DNA from: Flavobacterium johnsoniae UW101
GTDB lineage: Bacteria; Bacteroidota; Bacteroidia; Flavobacteriales; Flavobacteriaceae
Assembly: GCF_000016645.1 (NCBI RefSeq)
Contig: NC_009441.1
Span: 2,790,001 to 2,854,000 of the forward strand
DNA length: 64,000 nucleotides
Reading direction: 5' to 3'
The notes beneath the pieces were generated by a model. The model did not search any database and was not told where the DNA came from. It saw only the letters and a program-made list of their open reading frames with translations. This document shows positions 13,401-20,588 of the stretch, piece after piece (position 1 is the stretch's first letter; every line of letters begins with the position of its first letter). The position numbers were made by a program, and so were the translations under genes.

Positions 13401-13869
13401 TCAAGGTTCGTTCATCATCGAAGAATTAACCGATTTAGTTGAAGCTGCAGTTCTTCAGGAATTCGACAGAATTACAGAACGTGGCGGTGTTCTTGGCGCA
13501 ATGGAAACCATGTACCAACGTTCTAAAATTCAGGAAGAAAGCTTGTATTACGAAACCTTAAAACACAACGGCGATTTCCCAATTGTGGGTGTAAATACGT
13601 TCCTGAGTTCAAAAGGTTCGCCAACCGTAATTCCAGCTGAGGTTATTCGTGCTACAGAAGAAGAAAAACAGTATCAAATTACGATGCTGGATAACTTGCA
13701 TAATTTCCACGAAGCAAAAGTAAACGAGCATTTAAATACGTTACAGCAAGCCGCTATTAAAAATGAAAACTTATTCGACCATTTAATGGAAGCAACAAAG
13801 GTTTGTTCTTTAGGTCAGATTACTTCGGCTTTGTTTGAAGTGGGAGGGCAGTATAGAAGGAATATGTAG
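10429..13869 (+). CDS. icmF: Fused acyl-CoA mutase (isobutyryl-CoA mutase, IcmF type)
   Basis: 1146 aa with three modules in the IcmF order: a B12-binding domain (residues 1-150, [14 protein letters not shown] with His25 as cobalt ligand), a MeaB-like G-protein chaperone (P-loop GTGGAGKS at 203-210, later [12 protein letters not shown] with the NKxD motif), and a mutase barrel (about 560-1146). IcmF interconverts isobutyryl-CoA and n-butyryl-CoA by an adenosylcobalamin radical mechanism, the GTPase part loading and protecting the cofactor. [20 protein letters not shown] is the IcmF-like substrate pocket, with Phe where methylmalonyl-CoA mutase has Tyr. Family members are often annotated simply as methylmalonyl-CoA mutase, so substrate is inferred. 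Stand-alone gene with a terminator after it. Confidence 0.88.
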
Positions 13870-13890
13870 AATTTACTTTTTATAGATTTA

Positions 13891-13925
13891 AGAAACCTCT
13901 CAAGATTTTTTGGGAGGTTTTTTTG
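13891..13925. terminator. Terminator after icmF
   Basis: AAACCTC and GAGGTTT arms about 13 bp apart, then a long T run. It separates icmF from the reverse transcriptase island. Confidence 0.8.
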
Positions 13926-13981
13926 TTTTTATTTTATTGTTTACGGTTTACCGTAATTTTTTCAGGAAGGTTTTTTATATG

Positions 13982-14012
13982 TTTGCTCAATATCAGTTTC
14001 TTAATATTTAGG
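13982..14012 (+). promoter_or_regulatory. Candidate promoter of the RT-associated ncRNA
   Basis: TTTG at 13982-13985, a 19-bp spacer, then TATTTAGG at 14005-14012, which fits the Bacteroidota -33/-7 pattern except in two positions of the -7 box. Transcription would start near 14017-14019 and run through the structured region into the reverse transcriptase gene. No other TAnnTTTG-like box with correct spacing was seen between the icmF terminator and the RT. Confidence 0.45.
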
Positions 14013-14018
14013 CAAAAC

Positions 14019-14392
14019 AAAGATTATGCTTTAAATGAAAAAAGAATATTTTAAAATGAAATCAAATATGGGCCAGAAGGTCAGAATGTTACGTTTTACT
14101 CGGTAATACCTTCTAAGATATACGTTAGTCGGGAAAGAAAATACCAATTTCCAAATTTCCCTTTAAATAAATAGAGAGAAGTAAAGAAATGGTTGCTAAC
14201 AGTGTTAAAGCTGTTTGCTTCTTGAGGTTGAATCTGAAGAATCTATTTCTAAGCATTTTAATGATGTTTAAGTGATTTATTACAAAGATAACAATTTCGA
14301 TACCTGAAGAGAGTAGTGTTGAAATAGCATTTTATGTGAAAGCTTCGAAAGGCATGTGCATTCTAAACCTGCTACTATTAATCTGGCCCTCC
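14019..14392 (+). ncRNA. Probable template ncRNA of a DRT2-type reverse transcriptase
   Basis: The stretch before the RT has no good gene but much pairing potential. GGGCCAGA (14070-14077) is exactly complementary to TCTGGCCC (14382-14389), closing a domain of about 320 nt that ends 11 bp before the RT start codon. Inside are AGAAGGT/ACCTTCT (14075-14081 with 14108-14114), GGGAAA/TTTCCC (14131-14136 with 14156-14161), a GCTAAC hairpin (about 14194-14210), TCTTGAGGT/ACCTGAAGA with one mismatch (14220-14228 with 14302-14310) and AGTAG/CTACT (14312-14316 with 14372-14376). DRT2 systems carry an ncRNA of comparable size and place. The right arm is followed by CCTCC and a T run, so partial termination before the RT is possible. 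Exact ends are unknown. Confidence 0.6.
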
Positions 14393-14400
14393 TTTTTTAT

Positions 14401-15918
14401 ATGGAAATAGAAGAATGGTTTAAATTAAAACGTTATCCTCATATTGGAGAACCAATAACACAAAAAGATTATAAATGGATTAAGAGGTATGTGCAAGATG
14501 AAAACTGCATTAAAAAGCATAGTTTTTTACCCTTAGTACATAAATGTATTGTTCAAAGAAAATATCGTGCTGATTTATCTACAAATACCAGAAATCCTAG
14601 TGGAAAAAGAAGACGAATTATAGGAACTCCTAAAATCAGAAACATTTATTATTCATCTCATTTAGATTCTTTGATATTTTCATATTACAATTATCTACTA
14701 AGTGAAAATTATAAAGAATTGATGAAATTAAAAAATTTCAATAATTCAATCGTAGCTTATCGCAAAATTCCCCTTTTTGAGGGTTCAGAGAAAAACAAAT
14801 GTAATATTGATTTTGCGAAAGATACTTTTGAATATATTGAAAAGAATAAAGAGAAAAAACTCAGTGTAATTGTTGCAGATGTAACATCTTTTTTTGATAA
14901 TTTAAACCATAAAATATTAAAAAAACAGTGGAGTAGACTACTAAATGAGAAAACCTTGCCAGACTGCCATTTTAATGTATTTAAAGCACTTACAAACCTA
15001 CGATACGTAGAATCAGATCAATTATTTAATAGTTATTTTGGAACTATGATTGTGGAAAAAGGTATTCCTAATTCAGATAAAAAAGAATACAAAAGAATAA
15101 AAATTAATTCTAATAAATATTTCAAAGAAAAAAATGCTGTTGCTTATTGTAGTAAAAGTGATTTTTTAAAGAATAATTTAAATCTTATTATCTCTGCCAA
15201 TAGTACTAAAGGAATACCTCAAGGTAGTCCAATAAGCGCAACATTAGCGAATGTTTATATGATGGATTTTGATCAGGAGGTATATGATAAGATTGTATCG
15301 AACAAAGGTTTTTATCAAAGATACAGCGATGATTTAATTATTATTTGCGAACAAGAATTTGAAGATGATATAATTAAGTTTGTTAGAGACAGAATTCAGA
15401 ATTTAGTAAAATTAGAAATTAGTGAAAGTAAAACTAAGGTTTACAGATTTGAAGAATTAAATGGAAAATTTTTAGGCTTTGAAATAGATGAAAAAACAAA
15501 AGAACCTAATTTTAATAAAACTTTAGAGTATTTAGGTTTTGAATATAATGGGCAAAAAATTTTAGTTAAAACTTCGGGTTTCTCTAAGTTTTATAGATCA
15601 ATGAAAAGATCTTTTAAAAAATCTACATCTTTGGCAATTAACAGTAAAAATCCAGATAGAGACATTTTCAAATCTAGATTATATAAAAGATTTACATATA
15701 AAGGGGCAAGAAGAAAATTAATTTTTCGCCCATCAAAAGATAATCCAAGATTGTACTTGAAAACAAAAGAATATTATTGGGGAAATTATTTAAGTTATCT
15801 TTATAAAGCAAATGATAGCATGAAATCAATAAATAGATCTGATGCCATAAAAAGACAAAGTAAAAAAATTTGGAAAAGTTTTCATAGATTGATGAGATAT
15901 CATGAAAGTCGATTATGA
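14401..15918 (+). CDS. drt2: DRT2/UG2-like antiviral reverse transcriptase
   Basis: 505 aa from the ATG at 14401; an upstream in-frame ATG at 14356 lies inside the structured RNA region, and MEIEEWFKLKRYPHIGEPIT is the natural-looking N-terminus. RT motifs are intact: motif A VADVTSFFDNLNH (Asp160), motif B GIPQGSPISATLANVYM (271-287), motif C RYSDDLIII (Asp310, Asp311) and motif E KFLGFE. There is no maturase, HNH endonuclease or integrase part, against a group II intron. The YPHIG and KHSFLPLVHK start and the ASH-like SSHLDSLIFSYY segment are what I remember of the UG2/DRT2 defence class. Known members reverse-transcribe an upstream ncRNA into concatemeric cDNA that, on phage attack, encodes a toxic repeat protein. 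Very AT-rich, unlike icmF beside it, which suggests transfer. Confidence 0.75.
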   Translation: MEIEEWFKLKRYPHIGEPITQKDYKWIKRYVQDENCIKKHSFLPLVHKCIVQRKYRADLSTNTRNPSGKRRRIIGTPKIRNIYYSSHLDSLIFSYYNYLLSENYKELMKLKNFNNSIVAYRKIPLFEGSEKNKCNIDFAKDTFEYIEKNKEKKLSVIVADVTSFFDNLNHKILKKQWSRLLNEKTLPDCHFNVFKALTNLRYVESDQLFNSYFGTMIVEKGIPNSDKKEYKRIKINSNKYFKEKNAVAYCSKSDFLKNNLNLIISANSTKGIPQGSPISATLANVYMMDFDQEVYDKIVSNKGFYQRYSDDLIIICEQEFEDDIIKFVRDRIQNLVKLEISESKTKVYRFEELNGKFLGFEIDEKTKEPNFNKTLEYLGFEYNGQKILVKTSGFSKFYRSMKRSFKKSTSLAINSKNPDRDIFKSRLYKRFTYKGARRKLIFRPSKDNPRLYLKTKEYYWGNYLSYLYKANDSMKSINRSDAIKRQSKKIWKSFHRLMRYHESRL

Positions 15919-15935
15919 TATTTTCTTTGTTTCCC

Positions 15936-15998
15936 CGCTAGCGCGAGCGTCTCGCTCGTGAACACAAAGAAATGCACGAGCGAGACGCTCGCGCCAGC
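15936..15998. repeat. GC-rich palindromic repeat after the RT gene
   Basis: The arms at 15937-15960 and 15975-15998 are 24-bp reverse complements with one mismatch, built around GCGAGCGTCTCGCTCG. GC content is far above the surroundings. It starts 18 bp after the RT stop codon and could act as its transcription end, though no T run follows on the plus strand. Confidence 0.8.
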
Positions 15999-15999
15999 A

Positions 16000-16190
16000 A
16001 AAAAATAAAATTCTATAAAGTTTGTCATTTCGACGTAAGGAGAAATCTCTACGCGCTGAGCACGCACTGTTGTCGAGTTTCTTGCGAAGATTTCTCCTTC
16101 GTCGAAATGACAAGATTGCGGTTAATATTGAAGAAGTTCCAAAGGAACAAAGCATATTGTAGGGATGGATTTTAATCCGTCCAAGACAAA
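16000..16190. repeat. Composite intergenic repeat, copy A
   Basis: It begins AAAATAAAATTCTATAAAG, contains a palindrome with arms at 16024-16048 and 16088-16111 (GTCATTTCGACG...GGAGAAATCT and its complement), then a degenerate GAAGTTCC stretch and the small palindrome GGATGGATTTTAATCCGTCC (16163-16182). The whole order of parts recurs at about 17350-17555. The pair flanks the 105-aa gene and the XRE gene. Confidence 0.75.
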
Positions 16191-16250
16191 GAAATTCCGT
16201 AACCAAAATCCATTATCATAAGCAAAACAAAAATCCAATTATCAGATATA

Positions 16251-16321
16251 ACCCGTGGTTTCAACCACGGGTACACAATACGAGCAAGACAATATTACGT
16301 TCCCGTGGTTGAAACCACGGG
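16251..16321. repeat. Pair of perfect CCCGTGG palindromes
   Basis: ACCCGTGGTTTCAACCACGG plus GT (16251-16272) and CCCGTGGTTGAAACCACGGG (16302-16321) are perfect or nearly perfect palindromes facing each other 29 bp apart, so they can also pair with one another. They are repetitive extragenic palindromes, not CRISPR repeats: there are two copies only, in opposite arrangement, and the space between is too short and unlike a spacer series. Confidence 0.8.
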
Positions 16322-16358
16322 CTATGTTTATATCGTTTTGAAATAACAAAAAAGAAAA

Positions 16359-16676
16359 TCATTCCCCGGCAATCTCGCCAACATATCCCAAAAACTCCAT
16401 TTCGTCTAAAGGAAATAGTTGCAGAACAGTTTCTAAAATAAGGCTTACGTTTATAGATTGGTTTTTCTTTTCGGGAACGTTGTGCATATCATGATCGAGT
16501 GCGAGAATGCAGAGTTTTAGCAAATCGGTTATAATACAGCCGAGTTCAAAATGGTTTTGAATTTTAATTTGAGCGAAATATTCGTTTGAGTTGTCAGTTC
16601 TGGGTTTTAGGGTTTTGAAATAAAGAGTAGTTAATCGTTTTAGGTTTTTTACAATTTCAGGTTCATTTGTTTCCAT
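16359..16676 (-). CDS. Hypothetical protein, 105 aa
   Basis: A small acidic, probably helical cytoplasmic protein (EIVKNLKRLTTLYFKTLKP, then LGCIITDLLKLCILALDHDM, ending LDEMEFLGYVGEIAGE). No signal peptide and no motif I recognise. It is divergent from the XRE regulator, with about 200 bp between their starts, and both sit between the two composite repeats. It could be a regulated partner of the XRE protein, but nothing in the sequence shows this directly. Confidence 0.65.
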   Translation of the reverse strand: METNEPEIVKNLKRLTTLYFKTLKPRTDNSNEYFAQIKIQNHFELGCIITDLLKLCILALDHDMHNVPEKKNQSINVSLILETVLQLFPLDEMEFLGYVGEIAGE

Positions 16677-17618: not shown

Positions 17619-18005
17619 TTAACGACGAAATCCTGGACTATGGTTTACAGTTTCGTCTAATTTTACAGTTTTTGCCTTTTTAGCAGCAACTTTAATCTCG
17701 TGTTTCGCAACTTTGTCGTTTGCTGTTACTTCAAGTACATAAGTTCCGGCAGGAAAACCTTCCAGGCTTATTGTTTTTGAAACTTCTAATTTGTTTGCTG
17801 CAGATTCTCCCGCATAAAGTAAATTGTGGTTTTCGTCGTAGATCGAAAAAGATGATTTTTCAACTGTGTCTAAAGTAAAGCTGACTACTTTTCCGTTTCC
17901 AGTTTGAATGTGTAAAATGTAATCGCCTTTTCCATCAATGGCGTAAGTAAATACTGTTGCTAAAAAAAAGGCAGCAACTAAACCTGTCTTGGTAAATTTT
18001 GTCAT
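17619..18005 (-). CDS. Small secreted protein, most divergent member of a four-paralog family
   Basis: 128 aa with a signal peptide (VAAFFLATVFTYA, cut before IDGKGDY). The mature part has the family pattern: YILHIQTGNGKVVSFTLD, then SIYDENHNLLYAGES, then EGFPAGTYVLEVTAND, then KHEIKV. This strand order, with a bend rich in Gly and Tyr before the last strands, recalls the small beta-sandwich of type IX secretion tails, but the gene encodes nothing else. It is the most diverged of the four tandem genes and lacks the conserved upstream block shared by the other three. Function unknown; possibly an exported structural or adhesion protein. Confidence 0.8.
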   Translation of the reverse strand: MTKFTKTGLVAAFFLATVFTYAIDGKGDYILHIQTGNGKVVSFTLDTVEKSSFSIYDENHNLLYAGESAANKLEVSKTISLEGFPAGTYVLEVTANDKVAKHEIKVAAKKAKTVKLDETVNHSPGFRR

Positions 18006-18385
18006 GTTTTTTTTAAATTATTATTTTTATTACTTAATGTGGAACGGTCAAAACTACAAATAGAATTTTAATTTTTTATCAAAAAACCTGTCTTTTTTGA
18101 GGTTTAAAATGCTGAATTAAAACCTTTTCTGTGTTTTGTCTACGCTATGTACGTAAATACGGGACTTGCGGTTTTATCTTTTTTAAAATTATTTTTTAAC
18201 AAAAAAAAGCGGCTTTAATAATTATTAAGAATAATTTTTCAAAAAAGTTAAAGAGAGTTTTTTTCTTCGGTTAAAAGCATAAAAAAACAGCTCAATAACC
18301 ACAAAGAGCTGTTTTTAAAACAATCACAGTTTTAACTTTACTAACTATCTAACCTTATTTATACTTTATGAGAAGTATAACTTTT
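18006..18385. other. Intergenic region between the first and second paralog
   Basis: 380 bp without an ORF. It holds the leader of the 17619-18005 gene, an AT-rich stretch, and on the other side the terminator of the 18386 gene (18281-18317) with the conserved TTTACTAACTATCTAACC tail shared with the other two paralogs. I see no copy of the upstream block found near the other genes. Confidence 0.6.
18281..18317 (-). terminator. Shared-type terminator of paralog 2
   Basis: AACAGCTC and GAGCTGTT arms with a loop AATAACCACAAA, T run on the minus strand. The same hairpin and loop recur at 19072-19107 and 20085-20122, showing that the duplicated units include the 3' untranslated region. Confidence 0.8.
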
Positions 18386-18790
18386 TTAGCGCACTGCTAC
18401 GCTTGTATTTTTAGCAGCATATCCTGCTTTATAAACTGTCGAAATAGCTTTTGCAGATAAAACTGTAGCCTCATCTGTAATTTTAATTTCGTGTCTAACT
18501 TTTTTTACATTGTCTTCTGCTTCTAAAAAGTAAGTTCCTTCCGGAAATTCTTCTAAGCTGAAGGTTCTTAATATTCCATCTTTACCTGAAGCAGTTTCAG
18601 AATAAATTAGAGATCCGTCTTTGTCGTAAATTGCAAGGTTTGCTTTTTGTACTCTGTTAAGAGCAAATGTTATAAGCTTTCCGTTTGCTTTTATTACATG
18701 AAGATTAAAATCTTCGTTCCCATCAATTGCATACGTACTTCCTGTAAAAAGTACAGCACATACTAAACTCAATTTTAAAATCTTTTTCAT
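18386..18790 (-). CDS. Small secreted protein, paralog 2 of 4
   Basis: 134 aa. Signal peptide (KILKLSLVCAVLFTGSTYA) then the mature start IDGNEDFNLHVIKANGK. The central block ANLAIYDKDGSLIYSETASG and EEFPEGTYFLEAEDN is almost the same as in the genes at 19222 and 20190, with the final KNTSVAVR shared with the 20190 gene. Conserved Gly, Tyr and Asp positions suggest a small all-beta domain. It is transcribed from a leader that carries the 106-bp conserved block at 18865-18970. No catalytic residues are apparent. Exported, function unknown. Confidence 0.85.
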   Translation of the reverse strand: MKKILKLSLVCAVLFTGSTYAIDGNEDFNLHVIKANGKLITFALNRVQKANLAIYDKDGSLIYSETASGKDGILRTFSLEEFPEGTYFLEAEDNVKKVRHEIKITDEATVLSAKAISTVYKAGYAAKNTSVAVR

Positions 18791-18864
18791 AGTTCTTAGT
18801 TTTTAAATTATTAGTTTAATTCTCTGATGTAAAATTACTTAAGGACTACAAAAAAAGTATCTGC

Positions 18865-18970
18865 TCTATTTTCCAATTTCGATGCTGTATTCTCATTTAC
18901 GAAACCGTTATAGGTTAAAATTTGAATTATATTTATCGTTTTGGTTAATTCGGTTATTATTTTTCAACGT
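18865..18970. promoter_or_regulatory. Conserved upstream block, copy 1 (candidate operator)
   Basis: About 106 bp conserved with 19651-19760 and 20663-20770, starting CTATTTTCCAATTTCGATG, through TTCTCATTTACGAAACCG, TTATAGGTTAAAATTTGA, to GTTATTATTTTTCAACG. The core AACCGTTATAGGTT is a short palindrome (AACC/GGTT). It lies 75-180 bp upstream of the gene start. The gene-proximal edge has TTGG on the minus strand that could be the -33 element. The 431-bp gap at 18791-19221 holds only this block and the terminator of the next gene. Confidence 0.65.
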
Positions 18971-19071
18971 TTTTGCAAAAATGTAAATTTACCTTTATCT
19001 TACAATTTCGTAATATTTGATGCAAAAAACAGGTCGTTGTATTAATTGATTTTTACCGAAAAGTAAAGCAC

Positions 19072-19107
19072 AAAAAAAACAGCTCAATAACCACAAAGAG
19101 CTGTTTC
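19072..19107 (-). terminator. Shared-type terminator of paralog 3
   Basis: Same stem and loop as at 18281-18317, followed on the gene side by the conserved TTTACTAACTATCTAACC word. Confidence 0.8.
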
Positions 19108-19221
19108 TAAAACTTTCGTTTTTAAACTTTACTAACTATCTAACCTCATTTTTATACTGTATGCGAGTATAAATTTTTACAACGCATGAGTGCGTTTATA
19201 TTGTTTGCAGAAATCTGCTTA

Positions 19222-19575
19222 TTAAAGTGCTTTTGAAGACAAAACAGAAGTTTCGTTTGTAATTTTAATTTCGTGTCTTGCTTTTTTATTGTTGTCTTCG
19301 ATTTCAAGGAAATAAGTTCCTTCTGGAAATTCTTCTAAACTGAATGTTCTTAAAATACCTTCTTTTCCAGAAGCATTTTCAGAATAAATTAAACTTCCAT
19401 TTTTGTCATATATGCTAATGCTTGCTTTTTGAACCTGGTTTAAAGCAAAAGTGATCATTTTACCATTTGCTTTCATAACGTGCATATTAAAAACGTTACC
19501 TCCGTCTATTGCATAAGTACTTAATCCTGATAAAAGTACAGCACATACTAAACTCAATTTTAAATTCTTTTTCAT
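19222..19575 (-). CDS. Small secreted protein, paralog 3 of 4, shortened C-terminus
   Basis: 117 aa. Signal peptide (KLSLVCAVLLSGLSTYA) and mature start IDGGNVFNMHVMKANGK, then SISIYDKNGSLIYSENASG and EEFPEGTYFLEIEDNNKK as in its neighbours. It stops after SVLSSKAL, where the other two continue for about 16-18 residues to NTSVAVR. Downstream sequence still shows GC-rich remains, so the tail may have been lost by a frameshift. The core domain is intact, so it may still be functional. Conserved block copy 2 lies upstream. Confidence 0.82.
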   Translation of the reverse strand: MKKNLKLSLVCAVLLSGLSTYAIDGGNVFNMHVMKANGKMITFALNQVQKASISIYDKNGSLIYSENASGKEGILRTFSLEEFPEGTYFLEIEDNNKKARHEIKITNETSVLSSKAL

Positions 19576-19650
19576 ACTATTTTATTTTAATGTTTTTATC
19601 TCTAATTCTCTGATGTAAAATTACTTTAGATATATATGTTTTTTATCAAC

Positions 19651-19760
19651 TCTATTTTCCAATTTCGATGCTGTATTCTCATTTACGAAACCGTTATAGG
19701 TTAAAATTTGAATTATCTTTATCGTTTTCGTTAATTCAGTTGTTATTTTTCAAGGTTTTT
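19651..19760. promoter_or_regulatory. Conserved upstream block, copy 2 (candidate operator)
   Basis: Nearly identical to copy 1 over TCTATTTTCCAATTTCGATG, ATTCTCATTTACGAAACC and GTTATAGGTTAAAATTTG, then the looser TTTATCGTTTTCGTTAATTC and GTTATTTTTCAAGG. It is 75-185 bp upstream of the paralog 3 start. Confidence 0.65.
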
Positions 19761-20084
19761 GCTTTTTCCGGAAAGGTAAAGAGGCAGAGGTTCAAAGAGA
19801 AAAAGAGACAGAGGATTGAAAAGGAATTTAGGTATTAAATAAACTTTGATTAAAGTTCATTTTTGAAGTTATTATGCGTGTTTTTGTCATTTCGATCCCG
19901 AGGCTTCGGAAGAGAAATCTCCACGAGAAACTCGACAAAGATTAGAATTTCGTTACGGAGTTACTTGCGAAGATTTCTCCTTACGTCGAAATGACAATGA
20001 TTGTTGAGACTGCGTGAAATTAAAACTACTATAATATATAGGTATGAAATAAGATTAAATACAAAATTTAGAAAAGTTTAGAGC

Positions 20085-20122
20085 AAAAAAAAACAGCCCA
20101 ATAACCACAAAGAGCTGTTTTA
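20085..20122 (-). terminator. Shared-type terminator of paralog 4
   Basis: Stem AACAGCcC / GAGCTGTT with one mismatch and the same AATAACCACAAA loop as the other copies; T run on the minus strand. Confidence 0.75.
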
Positions 20123-20189
20123 AAACTTACGTTTTTAACTTTACTAACTATCTAACCTTAGTTTTATACTTATGAGAAGTATAACTTGT

Positions 20190-20588
20190 TTAGCGTACTG
20201 CTACGCTTGTATTTTTTTCAGTTGTTTTGTAAACTGATGATATTGCTTTTGAAGATAAAGTTGTAACTTCATTATTTACGTTGATTTCGTATCTTACTTT
20301 TTTAGCGTTGTCTTCAACTTCTAAAAAGTAAACTCCATCAGGAAAATCCTGTAAGTTGAAAGTTCTTAAAATTCCATCTTTACCTGAAGCAATTTCAGAA
20401 TAGAATAATGTACCTTCTTTATCGTATATAGCCAATTTTGCTCTTTGTACTTGATTAAGACCAAAAGTGATATTTTTTCCGTTTTTTAATACATGAAGAT
20501 TAAAGTCCTCATTTCCATCAATCGCATAAGTACTGAAACCTGATAAAAGCACCGCACATACTAAACTTAATTTTACAATCTTTTTCAT
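20190..20588 (-). CDS. Small secreted protein, paralog 4 of 4
   Basis: 132 aa. Signal peptide (KLSLVCAVLLSGFSTYA) then IDGNEDFNLHVLKNGKN. It has the family core AKLAIYDKEGTLFYSEIASG, RTFNLQDFPDGVYFLEVEDN and the full C-terminal tail KNTSVAVR. It lacks two residues in the LHVLK-NGK loop relative to paralogs 2 and 3. Conserved block copy 3 (20663-20770) lies upstream, and the AraC gene starts 450 bp away on the other strand. Export with an unknown role, as for its paralogs. Confidence 0.85.
   Translation of the reverse strand: MKKIVKLSLVCAVLLSGFSTYAIDGNEDFNLHVLKNGKNITFGLNQVQRAKLAIYDKEGTLFYSEIASGKDGILRTFNLQDFPDGVYFLEVEDNAKKVRYEINVNNEVTTLSSKAISSVYKTTEKNTSVAVR

Follow-up and report, generated by a model that had tools for sequence, protein, structure and literature searches.

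A DRT2-family locus of Flavobacterium johnsoniae with a predicted antisense repeat gene whose promoter-like sequence forms only where template units are joined

The closest described relative of the locus analyzed here, a reverse transcriptase (RT) gene with an upstream RNA in a 64,000-nucleotide stretch of the Flavobacterium johnsoniae UW101 genome (NC_009441.1, positions 2,790,001 to 2,854,000; the window), is the DRT2 (UG2) system of Klebsiella pneumoniae. According to the primary account (PMC12039810), the Klebsiella RT is bound to a pseudoknotted RNA, a short DNA primer lies on the 3' end of this RNA, and synthesis jumps between two ACA motifs; the concatemeric product becomes double-stranded after infection, its junctions carry a promoter and an open frame, and the resulting Neo protein is toxic. 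In a 2024 preprint, annotation of Neo is called 'more challenging' in clades beyond the Klebsiella group. Neither of the stems 'bacteroid' and 'flavobacter' appears in the main text of PMC12039810, PMC11100668, PMC12596737 and PMC12483538, all from the open-licence literature. Two other kinds of system invite comparison. DRT9 (UG28) also joins an RT to an upstream structured RNA, and is described with a poly-dA product, a hexameric RT and a U-rich template stretch that is universally conserved in its RNAs (PMC12483538). Telomerase and DRT10 (PMC12632851) are alike at the level of concept, generating tandem repeats by realignment of the nascent end to a short duplicated motif; the comparison with telomerase is drawn in the Discussion of PMC12039810.

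The locus in the window shares with Klebsiella DRT2 the family and fold of the RT, a noncoding RNA (ncRNA) directly upstream, a template bracketed by a short repeated motif, a unit length that is a multiple of three, a single antisense frame that stays open over the junctions of joined units, a promoter made only by joining units, and a hydrophobic repeat that is predicted to be helical (PMC12039810, PMC11100668). The two differ in detail. The bracketing motif is the five-nucleotide ATACC in the window and ATTC in a second clade of relatives, rather than the ACA of Klebsiella; the unit is 159 nt long (147 to 159 in the window's clade) instead of 120 (111 to 129 published); the junction promoter reads TTTG-N20-TAnnTTTG instead of TTGACA-N17-TATAAT; the start codon stands in an A-rich context, whereas a ribosome-binding site is described for Klebsiella; and the RT has 505 residues against 425. 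We consider it very probable that the locus is an anti-phage system of the DRT2 family which works like DRT2, with a covarying ncRNA, a concatemeric neo gene and a promoter of the Bacteroidota type that exists only at the joints. In contrast to the repeats of telomerase and DRT10, the unit in the window would be 159 nt long and coding. The antisense repeat gene appears to be the new part, since the logic of neo is known from Klebsiella and recurs here with a different jump motif, a longer unit and a different promoter. It is absent from the initial annotation of this stretch, which described a DRT2/UG2-like RT preceded by a structured RNA.

That class assignment was borne out. PADLOC gave the RT Drt2 matches of 454 and 300 bits, the next family, RT_UG17, reaching 89 bits; Drt2 chains were the top matches among PDB sequences (E 2.7e-52); and in a fold search the DRT2 RT-RNA complex 9c0i came first (E 1.6e-24), followed by DRT9 at 2.9e-8. 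The query for the fold search was an AlphaFold2 model of middling confidence (mean predicted local distance difference test score, pLDDT, 62), so this match is taken as support only. Judged by these comparisons, the RT is a member of the DRT2 family on a branch outside the NCBIfam equivalog, and membership is claimed for the wider family only. DRT9, proposed in the initial annotation as the main alternative, would have a homopolymer copied from the RNA by slippage on a run of uridines. The layout of RT and upstream RNA is the same and DRT9 structures were the second-best fold matches, but the PADLOC and fold scores both favor Drt2, no Drt9/UG28 model is among the best 25 of the 52 matching PADLOC families, and in the 24 aligned RNAs there is at most UUU beside the 3' jump motif, with no U-rich stretch of the kind conserved in DRT9. 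A DRT9-like system is accordingly a very improbable explanation.

Another idea is that the gene is a decayed or mobile RT, left by a group II intron, a retron or a diversity-generating retroelement (DGR). Low GC content, flanking palindromes and a similarity to intron and retron RTs, present but weaker, would suit such a relic. On the other side, the open reading frame (ORF) is full-length, and the catalytic residues Y308, S309, D310 and D311 are invariant across 19 aligned sequences including that of the window; the initial annotation had noted complete catalytic motifs. Pfam searched at E up to 1 returned RVT_1, alone above the cut-off, and one sub-threshold match, with no maturase, HNH, integrase or partner domain. 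Among the 120 of 1843 matches listed by a protein search, those other than the window's own protein are 61-88% identical to it; homologs occur in named genomes of many genera, and the RNA is conserved. Rfam listed no intron match in 13850-16400, a region for which no dedicated search for intron boundaries, msr/msd or TR/VR was made. We give a relic hardly any credence. The nearest relatives of the RT are not intron, retron or DGR RTs; neither a grouping with such RTs nor a lack of structure upstream of homologs, the sequence-based outcomes that the initial annotation had named as fatal to it, appeared.

The upstream RNA was compared in an alignment of the window with 24 Bacteroidota loci, spanning the region from the 5' arm of the terminal stem to its 3' arm. 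Covariation was counted on 24 of these 25 sequences, L038 being omitted because its upstream region is a near-identical duplicate of the window's. Compensatory changes were found in 21 of 62 predicted pairs, a level reached by none of 500 shuffles. The predicted structure pairs 96% of cells compared with 34-47% for six versions slid along the alignment, a comparison that favors it because it was predicted from the same alignment. Folding of the single sequence gave a modest gain over shuffles (z -2.25, with 1 of 100 shuffles as good). The complementary ends recognized in the initial annotation pair exactly in the window, and the terminal stem has at least 7 bp in every locus of the window's clade (26 with the window itself). 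Its arm varies among loci (GGGCCAGA, GGGGGCAGA, GGGGTCAGA, GGGGACAG, GGAGGCAGA and others), each variant with a matching complement; the stem that scores best in L039 and L093 is in a different, A+T-rich register. The hairpin immediately 5' to the template corresponds in position to the '5' handle' of Klebsiella, and in its helix 3 all four pairs show compensatory changes. Rfam returned 15 matches to the region, all below the gathering score and eight of them to microRNA models. In loci of the ATTC clade (for example L067, L071 and L075) a TGGTACAATTTGTGA-like stretch recurs 5' to the RNA, which may be the RNA's own promoter in that clade.

In the 25-row alignment, every gap from about 14141 to 14304 has a length divisible by three, which is not so for many gaps outside this interval; for the 26-locus clade the gap lengths are 3, 3, 3, 6, 6 and 9 inside the unit, and 5 of 22 gaps outside are multiples of three. 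The unit was delimited in this discovery set as the segment from ATACY to ATACCT; several rows also had a second, longer motif pair, which was not used. In all 25 rows the unit length is a multiple of three (147 to 159) and the same antisense frame is free of stop codons when the unit is repeated. A CAATTTC repeat with copies 147 nt apart suits the window by eye as a jump motif but does not suit all aligned homologs, as ATACC does, and was rejected.

Units were also set by a frame-blind rule, which requires the two motifs to be separated by 120-165 nt and followed by the 3' scaffold signature, and which ignores both frame and length modulo three. It was applied to 115 distinct upstream regions, a few belonging to remote RTs, that remained once RT matches spanning fewer than 200 residues, 13 duplicates and a second copy of the window's own region had been excluded. 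A unit was set in 63 of them, 38 with ATACC and 25 with ATTC, the second motif, recognized in another clade. Twenty-four of the ATACC loci came from the discovery set and 14 were held out (L012, L115 and the 12 loci of clade 3); five of the ATTC loci had already been seen to be open when the motif was discovered, and in four the first of two candidate motif pairs was taken. Every one of the 63 units has a length divisible by three and an open antisense frame 1 across the junction. Conceivably the RNA of a DRT2-type RT serves as a structural cofactor or as the template of a noncoding cDNA, and base composition together with constraint on the RNA leaves the antisense frame open as a by-product. 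Sense frame 0, which has the same register, is open in 20 of the 63 units, as this would allow; antisense frame 0 is open in two, sense frame 2 in one and the remaining two frames in none. However, shuffling leaves antisense frame 1 open in only 3-4% of units, and the restriction of gaps within the unit to multiples of three also speaks against a by-product. So does the history of substitutions. When the substitutions at 62 of the 63 loci are placed on the RT tree and all changes are taken as equally likely, the 557, 253 and 558 substitutions in the three clades should have produced 24.6, 9.1 and 27.1 stop gains in this frame, about 61 in all, and none was seen.

Promoters of F. johnsoniae are described as having -33 and -7 elements TTTG and TAnnTTTG, the latter refined to TAHHTTTG and the former less evident (PMC6847099), and mapping of start sites in F. 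psychrophilum concurs on the -7 box (PMC9723704). When units of the window are joined and read antisense, the sequence TTTG-N20-TATCTTTG arises at the junction. The exact arrangement TTTG-N20-TAnnTTTG is present at the junction in 22 of the 26 loci of the window's clade, in 5 of the 25 ATTC loci and in none of the 12 loci of clade 3. Before joining it is present in none of the 63 regions, and shuffled units contained it in 2 of 12,600 cases. With spacers of 19-21 nt and at most one mismatch, a junction promoter is found for 48 of the 63 units, which were set blind to promoters, and for 0.6% of shuffles. In all 22 loci with the exact box an ATG follows 26 nt past it, and the in-frame methionine at this predicted start does not vary in 24 aligned units. 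Upstream of it, A is found at positions -3, -6, -12 and -13 in 22, 16, 25 and 26 of the 26 loci of the window's clade, respectively, in units that are 34% A overall; A at these four positions favors initiation in F. johnsoniae (PMC6847099).

The repeat encoded in the window is a hydrophobic peptide of 53 residues with a grand average of hydropathy (GRAVY) of 0.78. Over the 63 units the mean GRAVY is 0.92 in the neo frame compared with -0.64 and 0.03 in the other antisense frames and 0.05 (sd 0.43) in shuffles. High hydropathy in that antisense frame only, and an exact promoter after joining only, both count against a by-product. One unit folded together with 23 homologous units was predicted to form a single helix (mean pLDDT 78, predicted template modelling score 0.34). 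Neo of the Klebsiella type likewise has a hydrophobic bias (PMC12039810), and Neo helices were predicted in PMC11100668.

The Klebsiella mechanism can be mapped onto these features with ATACC in place of ACA and the Bacteroidota promoter in place of a σ70 promoter. By this analogy, the RT would bind the scaffold at 14305-14389 and the hairpin at 14109-14132, and a short primer ending in GGTAT would anneal to the ATACC at 14300-14304. Synthesis of cDNA would proceed as far as the ATACC at 14141-14145, where the nascent GGTAT end could jump back and re-anneal to 14300-14304; repetition of this cycle would yield the concatemeric gene, neo. Phage infection is the presumed trigger for synthesis of the second strand, after which the primary σ factor of the host could read TTTG-N20-TATCTTTG at the repeat junctions. 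Translation would begin at the ATG at 14256-14254 and continue through successive repeats, and the hydrophobic, helical protein so produced may be toxic, stopping the growth of the infected cell.

Several observations weigh against this reading of the locus. The RT scores 337.3 bits against the NCBIfam Drt2 equivalog (NF041746), below its cut-off of 390. The motif rule set no unit in 52 of the 115 regions. In 49 of these, all except L084, L088 and L090, the RT is less than 43% identical to that of the window, and four (L013, L017, L088 and L090) contain an open unit without the scaffold signature. A motif-free finder gave scores of at least 13 in 86 of the 115 real regions, 6 of 115 reverse-complemented and 5 of 115 shuffled ones; because it also scores controls, single low-scoring hits among the 52 loci are not claimed. 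No conserved promoter for the ncRNA was found in the 26 loci of the window's clade: an exact TAnnTTTG occurs within 105 nt 5' to the stem in only two of them, at different distances, and the -33/-7 promoter that the initial annotation placed before the RNA is to that extent doubtful. In clade 3, the junction carries TTGACA-N17-TATATT in 8 of 12 loci (L058, L059, L061, L062, L066, L070, L074 and L105). The box TAnnTTGY, assigned to another sigma motif, SM5 (PMC9723704), fits 7 of the 12, and L060 and L073 retain TAnnTTTG in the form TATCTTTG. In clade 3 the σ70-like joint may be there for a phage or a different polymerase; that some systems would have promoters specific to phages was anticipated in the paper of Wilkinson.

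Two further points would suit a by-product of composition and RNA constraint. The ratio of nonsynonymous to synonymous polymorphism (pN/pS) in the neo frame is 0.76 in the window's clade, where other frames have 0.75-0.86, and 0.74 in the ATTC clade, where the range elsewhere is 0.63-1.05 and two other frames are lower; only in clade 3 is the neo frame the lowest (0.57 compared with 0.66-1.33). Selection at the codon level is weak, and pN/pS is not decisive as evidence for coding. In addition, bases of the promoter boxes and of the start context also take part in RNA helices, helix 10 covering the start context, and because these bases pair in the RNA, part of their conservation may be structural. 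Set beside the open frames, the missing stop gains and the promoter formed by joining, these points leave the by-product explanation unlikely, and a neo-like gene remains the reading that we prefer.

The type of junction promoter was also compared with the host. The known-type control L138, which scores 590 against the NCBIfam model and is above the cut-off, has the motif ACAG, a unit of 111 nt and TTGACA-N17-TATAAT at the junction, the architecture published for DRT2 of the Klebsiella type (PMC12039810); it should be noted that its unit was recovered using the σ70 promoter as a guide. Among eight controls from outside the Bacteroidota, four combine a perfect σ70 promoter at the junction with an open frame; the spacer of one of these is 16 nt long. 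A tally of 121 regions, which required an open unit whose repeat has four or more bases, compared 106 Bacteroidota regions with 15 others. The exact Bacteroidota promoter is present in 31 of the former and none of the latter, and a σ70 promoter with no more than one mismatch in 9 and 10, respectively. The nine are L016 and the eight clade 3 loci given above. In a FastTree analysis, with local support only and some long branches, the Moraxellaceae RTs L094, L103, L104 and L107 nest within a group of 88 rows that is otherwise Bacteroidota. L094 (from Psychrobacter), L104 and L107, but not L103, have an open frame and a σ70 junction with no or one mismatch. This pattern is as expected from transfer between phyla followed by promoter replacement, and suggests that the junction promoter can be altered to match a new host, clade 3 being an exception. 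It is likely that the gene-making of DRT2 is a portable design: a hidden repeat gene found across the Bacteroidota, with a joint-only promoter mostly matched to the σ factor of the host (TTGACA-N17-TATAAT in the Moraxellaceae), in which the jump motif is free to vary (ACA, ATACC or ATTC) and length modulo three, open frame and joint promoter are kept. We place this below certainty in part because eight of the nine σ70-like Bacteroidota loci belong to one clade, the exception to host matching.

A genome scan with an alignment of 19 sequences yielded 76 loci, of which 67 are assigned to the Bacteroidota by their record titles. A match to PDLC03757 at E 1e-40 is present in 40 of 398 genomes of the window's genus, and in the window's family 17 of 299 genomes drawn have an RT match at E 1e-60. 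Viral contigs gave 51 pattern matches and no relative, and five phage records match the RT at 26-32% identity. The window's genome has a second, distant RT (L007, G000:C1:4416753-4417040), whose match is confined to residues 267-367, at 32% identity.

The initial annotation took the RT gene for an inserted island. The low GC content of the RT (about 25-27% compared with 35-40% for icmF) and the palindromes at 15938-16326 agree with an insertion, a reading drawn from composition and not supported by comparison of loci; no empty site was found, as the two flanks of the window were never joined without the insert in 19 loci examined over 1.5 kb on each side. Fifty of 60 genomes, counting that of the window, have a match to the end of icmF. 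In another Flavobacterium genome (G023, contig 9) a different DRT2-type RT, 34% identical and convergent (L032 with L142), lies about 90 nt from the end of an icmF match, so that icmF is the neighbor of both RTs; with two cases only, the site is a possible insertion hot spot. The palindromic repeats 3' to the RT lie at 15938-16001, 16020-16115 and 16247-16326. The sequence CCCGTGGTTTCAACCACGGG has nine forward and eight reverse matches in the 6.1-Mb genome with at most two mismatches, counts that overlap in part as it is a near-palindrome, and in this the palindromes look like dispersed elements of the repetitive extragenic palindromic (REP) type. Farther on, at 17619-20588 on the minus strand, four similar ORFs of 117-134 residues follow one another; all of them begin with a hydrophobic stretch and contain a YAIDG motif. 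Coordinates of the features of the locus are given in Table 1.

Table 1. Features of the DRT2-family locus, in window coordinates
Feature	Position	Strand	Basis or remark
Conserved noncoding RNA	14070..14389	+	24 aligned sequences; core limits from comparison
Terminal stem, 5' arm, GGGCCAGA	14070..14077	+	pairs with 14382-14389; exact complementarity
Second long-range stem, 5' arm	14079..14093	+	pairs with 14355-14369; helix 1
Hairpin immediately 5' of template	14109..14132	+	helices 2 and 3
Predicted neo repeat, 53 codons	14140..14298	-	antisense open frame
Jump motif ATACC, 5' copy, template end	14141..14145	+	alignment and motif rule
Template unit, 159 nt	14141..14299	+	multiple of 3; antisense stop-free across junction
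Junction promoter, -33 box TTTG	14152..14155	-	20 nt from -7 box only once two units are joined
Predicted neo start codon ATG	14254..14256	-	26 nt after -7 box
Junction promoter, -7 box TATCTTTG	14283..14290	-	joined units read antisense
Predicted junction of joined units: ...TTTGGAAATTGGTAT followed directly by CGAAATTGTTATCTTTG...			
Jump motif ATACC, 3' copy, predicted site of priming and realignment	14300..14304	+	alignment and motif rule
Second long-range stem, 3' arm	14355..14369	+	pairs with 14079-14093; helix 1
Terminal stem, 3' arm, TCTGGCCC	14382..14389	+	pairs with 14070-14077; exact complementarity
DRT2-family reverse transcriptase, YSDD motif	14401..15918	+	505 aa; ATG start

The window's clade and the two further clades appear to give one answer, in which the logic of the gene is shared, the jump motif has changed and the promoter is mostly matched to the host. 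Exact predictions follow for the locus in F. johnsoniae, namely a 159-bp ladder, the sequence of the junction and the start site. Genes of this kind can be found by repeating candidate templates in silico, and the same approach could reveal others that are absent from the genome as it is written.

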